Below are positions 38,626-42,409 of a stretch of 42,420 bases of DNA, piece after piece (positions within the stretch are counted from its first letter, which is position 1; every line of letters begins with the position of its first letter). A program made the translations under genes and the position numbers. Source of the stretch: Microcaldota archaeon (GTDB lineage Archaea; Micrarchaeota; Micrarchaeia; Micrarchaeales; CABMGC01). Location of the stretch: positions 1 through 42,420 of the forward strand of contig JAJZLT010000036.1 in NCBI GenBank assembly GCA_021803245.1. Reading direction: 5' to 3'. Below the pieces are notes generated by a model. That model saw nothing but the letters and a program-made list of their open reading frames with translations. It had not been told where the DNA came from and did no database searches.

Positions 38626-39018
38626 TTATTTGCCTTTGCTAATGATAGAGTAATTGACCGAATATACACACTTATTCCTTTTTACGAGATTGAAAAATTC
38701 CCTTGTTTTTTCAGCTGTAGTATTAAGTGTCAGTATGTCTATGCCCGTGCCGGGATGATGGTGGTGCATGTCCGTCTCTATGGCCTCCCTGAACTTGTGT
38801 ATCAGATCCGAAACGTTGTTTTTCTCAGTATCTTTATATACGAGTACAAATACGCTCTCTACATCTCCCTTCAGCGAGTCGAGCGTCTCGTAGTCCTTTA
38901 TCAGGCTGAGCACAGCATTGCGGAGCATCTTCGACCTGCTGCTGTACCCCAGTCGTTTCTGTATCTGCTCAAGCTGCGCAAGGGAATTCTTATCCATTGA
39001 GATGCTTAGTATTTCCAT
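38626..39018 (-). CDS. NikR-like ribbon-helix-helix regulator
   Basis: The ATG at 39018 is 24 bases from a TATA box; the frame above it (to a TTG at 39048) would contain that TATA box, so the shorter start, giving 130 residues, is preferred. Residues 1-43 are a ribbon-helix-helix DNA-binding domain (EILSISMDKNSLAQLEQIQ, SSRSKMLRNAV). The C-terminal part (about 52-125) has the ferredoxin-like pattern of NikR regulatory domains with a run of four histidines at 85-88, another at 74 and a cysteine at 117 as candidate metal ligands. It is divergent from a metal-transporter-like gene, which fits a nickel- or cobalt-responsive repressor. The exact metal is unknown. Confidence 0.75.
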   Translation of the reverse strand: MEILSISMDKNSLAQLEQIQKRLGYSSRSKMLRNAVLSLIKDYETLDSLKGDVESVFVLVYKDTEKNNVSDLIHKFREAIETDMHHHHPGTGIDILTLNTTAEKTREFFNLVKRNKCVYSVNYSIISKGK

Positions 39019-39029
39019 GCAGTTCCTGA

Positions 39030-39094
39030 TTATTAACTTATATAGCAATATTTATTAATATTTAGTTATTAACATATATATCATTACTTAATAA
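39030..39094. promoter_or_regulatory. Shared promoter with repeats, candidate operator
   Basis: TTATTAAC occurs directly repeated at 39030-39037 and 39066-39073, and TTAATAA, the inverse of its first seven bases, lies at 39088-39094. Each copy of the direct repeat touches a TATA box: TATATAAG on the minus strand (39037-39044) for the regulator and ACATATATATC (39072-39082) for the transporter. This is the arrangement expected when one repressor blocks both promoters. Confidence 0.5.
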
Positions 39095-39107
39095 TTTATC
39101 TGGGCCG

Positions 39108-40094
39108 ATGTTCATGATCGCAAGAAAATATGTGCTTTTACTTGGAACAATAATAGTTATACTGGTTAGCGGGATCATGGCATTTCATTATGCATTTCCC
39201 CAGTTTAGCCTGTCATTTATACTTAATCCGCCGGCGGGGCTTACACTGGCAGAGATACTTACTATAGCATTTGTGCTGGGCATTTTGCATGGAATCACTC
39301 CCGATGAACACACTTGGCCCATTACATTCAGTTACGCAATTGGCAGCTATAGCACACGCAAGGGAATGAAGGCAGGGTTCTCCTTCTCTCTTGGTTTCAC
39401 AGCCCAGAGGGCATTTCTTACCACTCTTGGCTTTATCGGGCTGGCTGCCTTCTACAGGACATACAACCTTGATGGCCCGGTGTATATACTTGTTGGCGTC
39501 GCAATGGCAGTAGTAGGAACATATATACTGGATAAAAAGCTTGGGCTACATATACCTTTCGACAAGCTGCTCAGAAGCGAGCACCATTCCGGAAAATCAG
39601 AGCGCACCCCGATGCACGATGTAAAGCCCAAGGTAGCCATAATCCACGGGCTGATAGCGGGCTTTGGTTTTGGGGCATATGCAACAATTATAACATTTAT
39701 CTTGGCTCCGCAGGTTCCCGGCCTTATATATGCACCATTGCCCGGAGTCATGTTTGGGCTTGGGACGATGACGATGCAGATAATATTTGGGGCAGTATTT
39801 GCTAATTTTGCAAGGGTCAGAAAGCTGAGCGAGAACCAGATAAAATACGTTGGAAGAAAGACTGCCGGAAGAACGCTTCTTTATGGCGGGATAGCATTTG
39901 CAGCAATAGGTGCGCTTATTGTATTCTTTCCTGCTATAGATGCGTTTGCGGTGAGCACAGGCAACCCTATACCGAATCTTAGCTCCATAGGCATATCAAC
40001 AGTGCTAGTGCTGCTGGTTGTTGGAGTAATTGGCATAGGCAGCCTGATAGCAGGCATTGGAGAAATGCTGAGGCTAAACCGAAGGCGCAAGTAA
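39108..40094 (+). CDS. Membrane transporter, NicO/NiCoT-like
   Basis: A 328-residue membrane protein with about eight hydrophobic segments. The second region holds HGITPDEHTW at 61-70, a variant of the HxxxxDH metal-binding motif of nickel/cobalt transporters (NiCoT, NicO/RcnA). A polar loop at about 145-170 includes HHSGKSERTPMHD, rich in histidines, as in RcnA-type exporters. Direction and metal are unknown. The gene is divergent from a NikR-like regulator and its TATA box is overlapped by repeats, so metal-controlled expression is likely. ATGs at 39108 and 39114 are both possible. Confidence 0.72.
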   Translation: MFMIARKYVLLLGTIIVILVSGIMAFHYAFPQFSLSFILNPPAGLTLAEILTIAFVLGILHGITPDEHTWPITFSYAIGSYSTRKGMKAGFSFSLGFTAQRAFLTTLGFIGLAAFYRTYNLDGPVYILVGVAMAVVGTYILDKKLGLHIPFDKLLRSEHHSGKSERTPMHDVKPKVAIIHGLIAGFGFGAYATIITFILAPQVPGLIYAPLPGVMFGLGTMTMQIIFGAVFANFARVRKLSENQIKYVGRKTAGRTLLYGGIAFAAIGALIVFFPAIDAFAVSTGNPIPNLSSIGISTVLVLLVVGVIGIGSLIAGIGEMLRLNRRRK

Positions 40095-41560: not shown

Positions 41561-42409
41561 TCACATTTTTTGAAGGGCGGAAGTACATACAGTATCATAC
41601 GCCCAGAATCTCTGAATTGCCTCTGCAATCATGTTGATCTTTTTTCTGCTAACAATATTCTCTCCGTATTTCCTTTTTACTGCGGAGAAGATTCCTTCTG
41701 TGCACGGCCATCTCAGCCCATGCCTCACTTTTATTCTCCATTTATTTTGCATTTCCCTCCTCTTCTTTTCATTATCCCCATAATGCCTTGCGCCCCGGAT
41801 TCTGGGCAGACCAAATTGTTCCCACACCTCCTTCCTTCTTGCAGGCCTACTGCCTCTTACCGACGCATTTATGTGAATTGGTATTTTCGGTTCTATACCA
41901 TAACGATCCAGTTCATCGAATGTATCGTTTGTGTCAAACTTTCCATCGCCATAGAAGCCACCTATTTTCTTCCCTTTCCTTATCAGTTTTCTCGTATGCC
42001 CCATTGCAATTTTGGGTTCATCATCACCTTCTCCCTCTATGTGCGCATTCACAGCAAGTAATTTCTTATGTTTGACGTCTGCAGTTATCACCACAATAAG
42101 ATACTTCTTTCGAGTTCTTTCCCCATATTTGAAAACCCTGTACTGACCCGCATTGTTACTCTTCAATCCTGAGCCGTCACTTCCTAAGTCCAATTCATCA
42201 TATTCTGGCAGTATAATCTCTGGTTTCATTTTATGTATACGGTACCACACAGTAGTATAATCGTCATACTCTGGAATCAACCTGAATCTTGAGAGTTTCC
42301 TTGCAATACCCTCCAACCCTCGATAATCTACAAACTGGTGCCATACTTCCTGCCATTTCATAAACGATTCGGGAAAATGAAAAGGTCTACCCACTTTACG
42401 GCCATTCAT
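41561..42409 (-). mobile_element. IS5-like DDE transposase, right edge of window
   Basis: The visible transposase frame has 282 residues and may continue beyond the ATG at 42409, since codons upstream remain open to the edge (42420). It begins with GRPFHFPESFMKW and a helical DNA-binding part (GLEGIARKLSRF). The DDE residues are in place: Asp 78 in GSDGSGLKS, Asp 155 in FYGDGKFDTND and Glu 238 in CTEGIFSAVKRKYGE. This fits the IS5-type DDE_Tnp_1 group found in archaea. The left inverted repeat should lie between 41430 and 41560 but cannot be identified without the other end, which is outside the window. Confidence 0.85.

Follow-up and report, generated by a model that had tools for sequence, protein, structure and literature searches.

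Predicted control of an unnamed transporter family in Micrarchaeota by a regulator of the NikR fold with a putative new operator and a probably changed metal

The window, i.e. the whole stretch of DNA analyzed here, comprises 42,420 bp of contig JAJZLT010000036.1 of a Microcaldota archaeon (assembly GCA_021803245.1; Micrarchaeota in GTDB). It harbours a small regulator gene and, divergently oriented, a gene for a membrane transporter, separated by a gap of 89 bp with 78 % A+T (Table 1). An earlier note on this DNA had described a NikR-like regulator divergent from a membrane transporter, and fold, profile and motif comparisons agree with this. The sequence indicates ATG 39018 as the most likely regulator start; it is kept in the homologs (MEILSIS) and is preferred to the listed start TTG 39048. 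Both TATA-like boxes were called by the placement rule for archaeal TATA boxes. A DDE transposase (DDE_Tnp_1, Pfam) is located at 41561-42409, at the contig end and ~1.5 kb past the transporter.

Table 1 Features of the divergent regulator/transporter locus (positions in the window)
Feature	Position	Strand	Remarks
NikR-fold ribbon-helix-helix regulator (predicted), 130 aa	38626..39018	-	start ATG 39018, stop 38626-38628
Operator O1 (putative), ATTATTAAC-N13-TTTATTAAT	39029..39059	+	exact consensus; pairs kept in homologous loci
TATA-like box of regulator	39038..39044	-	~23 bp upstream of its ATG; sequence and promoter rule
Operator O2 (putative), GTTATTAAC-N13-CTTAATAAT	39065..39095	+	2 mismatches to consensus; sequence
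TATA-like box of transporter	39074..39081	+	~30 bp upstream of ATG 39108; sequence and promoter rule
NicO-like membrane transporter, 328 aa	39108..40094	+	34-member alignment; homologs in 65 of 98 relatives

The gap carries four TTAWTAA cores, at 39030, 39052, 39066 and 39088, which pair at exactly 22 bp (39030/39052 in O1 and 39066/39088 in O2), and each 13-bp spacer begins with a TATA-like run. These are the only two 22-bp TTAWTAA pairs in the whole window; two pairs were found in none of 200 shuffles of the window and in none of 2000 shuffles of the gap. The earlier note had reported TTATTAAC repeats (39030-39037 and 39066-39073) followed by a partial inverse copy, TTAATAAT, at 39088. All three copies are indeed present; the fourth core, at 39052, had been missed, and the conserved spacing is 22 bp rather than 36 bp. 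Nor do the repeats overlap the TATA boxes, as had been stated: they adjoin the TATA-like runs, which lie within the spacers. The single motifs carry no signal of their own. The 8-mer TTATTAAC occurs at chance level in the window (2 observed, 1.56 expected) and was dropped as a stand-alone signal, and the 7-mer core is not enriched (11 observed against 10.9 in shuffles). The 36-bp repeat arises because O2 follows O1 at this distance. As an operator this direct repeat was rejected as well, being present in 6 of 46 loci against 34 of 46 for the 22-bp pair. Two pairs placed 36-37 bp apart are also present in loci L110, L112, L128 and L147.

Scanning of genomes with a profile of the regulator yielded 47 loci, of which 43 are labelled Candidatus Micrarchaeota, three only as archaea and one as Marsarchaeota. 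The 22-bp TTAWTAA pair is present in the available DNA of 38 of these. Near the regulator, 23 loci have a NicO-like gene as partner, nine a ZIP gene and seven ZnuA-type ABC genes; eight loci have none. When spacings were counted upstream of the regulator, for 46 of the 47 loci after removal of one near-duplicate, 34 had the 22-bp pair within 300 bp, while no other spacing between 7 and 60 bp occurred in more than eight. The mean over 300 shuffles was 0.007, a contrast overstated by the shared ancestry of the loci. Flank counts over 43 sites, with the TTAWTAA core fixed by the search, gave the half-site RTTAWTAAY. This bears out the view of the earlier note that the operator differs from the GTATGA/TCATAC type. 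The new metal-switch motif that it had suggested holds for the operator sequence; the spacing equals that of E. coli NikR.

The pattern RTTAWTAAY-N13-TTTATTAAY was searched, as an exact match, in 301 genomes of the phylum. It was found at 39 sites in 38 genomes, while the reversed pattern, used as a control, matched once. Each of these 38 genomes belongs to the 93 that encode the regulator (E <= 1e-10), and none to the other 208; this genome set overlaps with the 47-locus set, so that the two sets of counts are not independent tests. With one mismatch allowed, among 98 relatives, a site was found in 29 of 35 regulator genomes and also in 12 of 63 regulator-less genomes, and the regulon counts are therefore based on exact sites only. 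One-mismatch sites outside the regulon, as well as a two-mismatch site on contig C18 of the own genome, were judged chance-like as the reversed control also matches. Two one-mismatch sites in regulator-less genomes were noted: one directly upstream of a clamp-loader-like gene in G003 (by eye), and one ~230 bp upstream of an Nramp-family open reading frame in G044 (L108:2592-2622).

Operator and regulator are not always neighbours. They lie on separate contigs in genomes G011, G016 and G145 (exact sites) and G051 (one mismatch), and in G057 1.6 kb separate the regulator from the exact site. Genome G005 served as a test of prediction: its regulator is on contig C48 and its ABC genes are on C5, and a site was found beside the ABC start (GTTATTAAC-N13-GTTAATAAT, two mismatches, cores 22 apart). 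The region of G054 examined alongside G005 had no site. In G035 no site was found in the region; its ABC genes begin at the contig edge, the upstream DNA being absent from the assembly.

A search for site pairs at metal genes had been proposed in the earlier note, and it placed 36 of 38 exact sites at metal-uptake genes. Neighbours were read at 38 of the 39 sites, G278 being left out: 17 are NicO-like, 13 ZIP, five ZnuA-type ABC and one CbiM-like, and two sites have the regulator only. Every matched gene points away from its site. The two regulator-only operators (G123, L153; G124, L151) have unannotated secreted-looking proteins as neighbours. The CbiM-like gene (G145, L186:282-1013) encodes an ECF component that contains a long His-rich loop; its neighbours are FeoB and a DtxR-like gene, the latter identified by eye. 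Judged by sequence this component may be a zinc or a nickel/cobalt importer.

The importers appear to replace each other. A NicO-like gene is present in 65 of the 98 relatives, the regulator in 35 and ZnuA-type proteins in seven. All seven ZnuA-type genomes carry the regulator and none carries a NicO-like gene; the genomes with an operator-linked ZIP gene (G025, G038, G072) likewise have no NicO-like gene, absences that are provisional in draft genomes. The 35 regulator genomes thus split into 24 with NicO-like genes, seven with ABC genes, three with operator-linked ZIP genes and one with none of these (G054, in which the regulator match is to a divergent homolog). Weak ZIP matches are found in 21 of the 98 relatives in all, and exclusivity is therefore claimed only for the ABC and the operator-linked ZIP genes. 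Since these two never occur alongside a NicO-like gene, the three importer types probably supply one and the same metal.

The N-terminus of the regulator matches the Pfam model RHH_1 above cut-off (26.6 bits, cut-off 20.5) and is thus a ribbon-helix-helix DNA-binding domain. NikR_C scores below cut-off (18.2 bits, cut-off 22), as do five NCBIfam nickel-regulator models (e.g. PRK01002, 60.3 bits against a cut-off of 111; TIGR02793, 24.9 against 175.45). A profile of 30 homologs compared with the PDB matched Pyrococcus horikoshii NikR (E 9.5e-11). An AF2 model (pLDDT 90.6) aligned over 128 residues with full-length PhNikR (2bj7; Z 13.7, rmsd 2.8); over the metal domain alone, 2bj7 was tied with TM1266. 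As modelled, the regulator is a NikR-fold protein, and the full-length match points to a C-terminal metal domain of the NikR type. It does not have the Fur-family fold expected of a Zur.

E. coli NikR binds nickel by His87, His89, Cys95 and His76', as given in the available part of a review (PMC7055735). In our alignment of 30 regulators (A1; G033 and G056 (L040/L009, L059/L005) and the divergent G040 (L020) were left out) the histidine equivalents are H85 (30/30), H87 (30/30) and H74 (29/30). At position 92, that of the Cys ligand, 18 regulators have Cys, 11 have Gly and one has Ala. The window regulator has Gly92; H74, H85 and H87 are present and the His3Cys nickel site is incomplete. The four consecutive histidines mentioned in the earlier note are there as well (HHHH, residues 85-88). 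A correlation of the Cys ligand with partner type was considered and rejected: NicO-like, ZIP and ABC genes are each served by Cys-containing as well as Cys-less regulators, so that Cys loss alone does not track the target. Among the strand residues Ile3-Ser5-Ser7 is invariant (30/30), while E. coli NikR carries Arg3-Thr5-Thr7 at these positions, and the changed half-site fits this replacement. G040 (L020:760-1140) and G054 (L211:2590-2970) encode a more divergent homolog of NikR, marked by LHSK...KCLE residues; by their sequences these homologs perhaps form a separate, more NikR-like branch.

The transporter is less easily placed. Its family, in an alignment of 34 members, is characterized by the motifs HGxTPDEHTWPITFSYA and HGxxAGxGFG, with an invariant TPDEHTWPITFSYA stretch directly preceded by HGx. 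The HxxxxDEH motif of the earlier note is found as HGITPDEH at residues 61-68. The label NicO-like, also taken from that note, is weak: two distant members reach PF03824 below cut-off (1.4e-4 and 3.0e-4), the window protein has no Pfam or NCBIfam match at E <= 0.1, and a comparison with the NiCoT profile of Micrarchaeota gave an hhalign probability of 1.6 %, with shallow alignments. No PF03824 match was found in G000. LysE matches at E <= 1 were obtained for 14 of the 34 members (best 1.9e-4) and DsbD_2 matches for two (best 1.4e-5). The AF2 model (pLDDT 73) had no Foldseek match in the PDB at E <= 0.001; a second fold comparison gave middling matches only, among them CcdA (5vkv) at rank 21 (Z 5.3, rmsd 4.9, 204 aligned). 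We therefore use NicO-like as a convenience name for an unnamed family whose sequence relations to LysE, DsbD_2 and NicO appear weak.

Of the 65 relatives with a homolog of the transporter, 41 have no regulator. In eight of 24 regulator-less loci (L026, L027, L029, L189, L194, L196, L197, L201) a DtxR/MntR-family gene lies directly upstream of a group B transporter, on the same strand; these were counted by a text-motif search, and Fe_dep_repr_C (Pfam) was found in all three of the eight that were analyzed. The transporter family thus also appears under another class of metal sensor in these loci. The own genome contains a second paralog of the transporter, of group B, which is open and near the end of contig C20 (L061:1992-2939) and has no 22-bp operator pair.

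It is highly improbable that the repeats are merely paired core-promoter elements of divergent genes. Such a reading would account for A+T-rich cores beside TATA-like runs in loci many of which are divergent, but the 22-bp spacing is fixed, exact sites are confined to regulator genomes with 36 of 38 at metal importers, and there are sites whose regulator is encoded elsewhere or as part of the same operon (G011, G016, G051, G005, G045, G052). With an operator assumed, the question is which metal it serves. Because ZIP and ZnuA-type ABC genes share the regulator and the operator, zinc (or manganese) rather than nickel is probably the metal of this switch. The partner proteins were recognized by PF02535 (ZIP; 5 of 5 tested) and PF01297 (ZnuA; 6 of 6 tested), and the best models were those of the zinc proteins AztC for three of three binding proteins and AztB for two of two permeases, all below cut-off. 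Neither ZIP nor ZnuA is a strictly zinc-specific family. Nevertheless, we regard zinc as the probable metal, with some reserve. An ordinary NikR, sensing nickel or cobalt from an A+T-rich operator, could claim the NikR-like sequence and fold, the three kept histidines, the Cys in 18 of 30 regulators and the exact site before a CbiM-like (cobalt/nickel ECF) gene. Moreover, nickel/cobalt permeases carry an HX4DH motif, which the HxxxxDEH of the transporter recalls. However, the partners are mainly ZIP, ZnuA-type ABC and the unnamed family. Of 60 relatives, four had a hydrogenase above cut-off, among them two of the 21 that carry the regulator, and none was found in the own genome, which is 80 % complete. 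NicO/NiCoT genes above cut-off occur in seven regulator genomes (G017, G033, G038, G042, G049, G056, G196); none of these genes lies at an exact operator, and in six of the seven genomes no one-mismatch site was found there either. Together with loss of the Cys ligand in the window regulator, this disfavours nickel, and nickel or cobalt sensing is judged quite unlikely from the sequences.

Manganese, sensed and imported by the same switch in an MntR-like role, is also judged unlikely, though the regulon offers it some footing. At each of the five exact ABC sites the third ligand of the binding protein is His, and the binding proteins of G128 and G129 have His-rich loops. Six other ABC binding proteins of the regulon (G051, G007, G027, G017, L131, L152; the latter two partial) have Glu, as in manganese-binding PsaA; the L115 sequence was too short for a call. 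One regulon hence includes ZnuA-type binding proteins of two kinds, five with His and six with Glu (L095 to L100, L131, L152, L162 to L166). The DtxR/MntR-family genes that precede the related transporter in eight of the 24 regulator-less loci and the one-mismatch site near the Nramp gene of G044, which has no regulator match, fit manganese as well. Against it stand the His ligand in all five exact-site binding proteins, the 13 exact sites that serve ZIP genes and the three His ligands of the regulator, which suit zinc better than manganese in coordination chemistry. The available part of a review warns against regarding metal selectivity as fixed by sequence similarity (PMC7055735).

Sequence comparison and prediction show the fold, the operator, how it is linked to the regulator, and which genes make up the regulon; from these we infer the following mechanism for a zinc switch, which as a whole we hold to be rather probable. 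The regulator would be a tetramer with two ribbon-helix-helix heads. One metal-loaded tetramer would bind each operator RTTAWTAAY-N13-TTTATTAAY, with half-sites 22 bp, or two helical turns, apart; E. coli NikR has this spacing too, which makes a single tetramer on each operator the natural assumption. Zn(II) would be bound by H74, H85 and H87. O1 and O2 would cover one TATA box each of the divergent promoter pair, and as binding there would cover both TATA-like runs, co-repression by metal combined with autoregulation is suggested. In metal-replete cells TBP/TFB would be blocked and both importer and regulator shut off; upon metal scarcity the regulator would release the DNA and the importer would be made. 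The NicO-like protein would import the same metal and be exchangeable with ZnuABC-type and ZIP importers across Micrarchaeota. A stronger form of this proposal, in which a zinc-sensing ribbon-helix-helix repressor is the archaeal counterpart of Zur on a NikR scaffold, with its own operator code and in control of an unrecognised zinc-importer family (HGxTPDEHTW) that replaces ZnuABC and ZIP, seems to us evenly balanced between true and false.

A NikR homolog in which operator and metal have both changed would, if true, show the evolution of metal-sensor specificity, of which a Cys lost in some lineages beside nearly fixed His ligands is the pattern. It would also provide uncultured archaea of small genome size with a switch for zinc or manganese uptake, and for an unnamed transporter family the exchange with known importers allows a prediction of the substrate. 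The available part of a 2019 review names NikR as the sole metal-regulated ribbon-helix-helix protein (PMC7055735). In the open-licence PMC literature no NikR-family zinc or manganese regulator and no Micrarchaeota NikR was found; one paper contains both 'Micrarchaeota' and 'NikR' (PMC10378326).

Among known systems, the transporter shares the H-x4-D-(E)-H motif with NicO/NiCoT proteins (PF03824) and differs from them by its own TPDEHTWPITFSYA stretch; for LysE/CcdA-type membrane proteins, weak LysE and DsbD_2 matches and a middling CcdA (5vkv) match were obtained. Bacterial Zur and AdcR resemble the system in their regulon of ZnuABC-type and ZIP-type importers, with the same presumed co-repressor logic. 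However, Zur has a Fur fold and AdcR a MarR fold, whereas the Micrarchaeota regulator is a ribbon-helix-helix protein. The NikRs of E. coli, H. pylori and P. horikoshii come closest, with a predicted full-length likeness (ribbon-helix-helix plus ACT-like metal domain), equivalents of His76, His87 and His89 and a site beside an uptake gene. The 22-bp spacing is shared as well: in the E. coli operator, GTATGA-N16-TCATAC, the half-sites are 22 bp apart from centre to centre, according to the available part of the review (PMC7055735). In contrast to NikR, the Micrarchaeota regulators recognize, as predicted, the half-site RTTAWTAAY instead of the GTATGA type and have Ile3-Ser5-Ser7 in place of Arg3-Thr5-Thr7. 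The Cys ligand is gone in 12 of 30, the window regulator included, and the latter falls below the cut-offs of all five NCBIfam nickel-regulator models. Their regulon, finally, consists mainly of ZIP, ZnuA-type ABC and NicO-like genes, with predicted substrates, and not of nickel-uptake genes.
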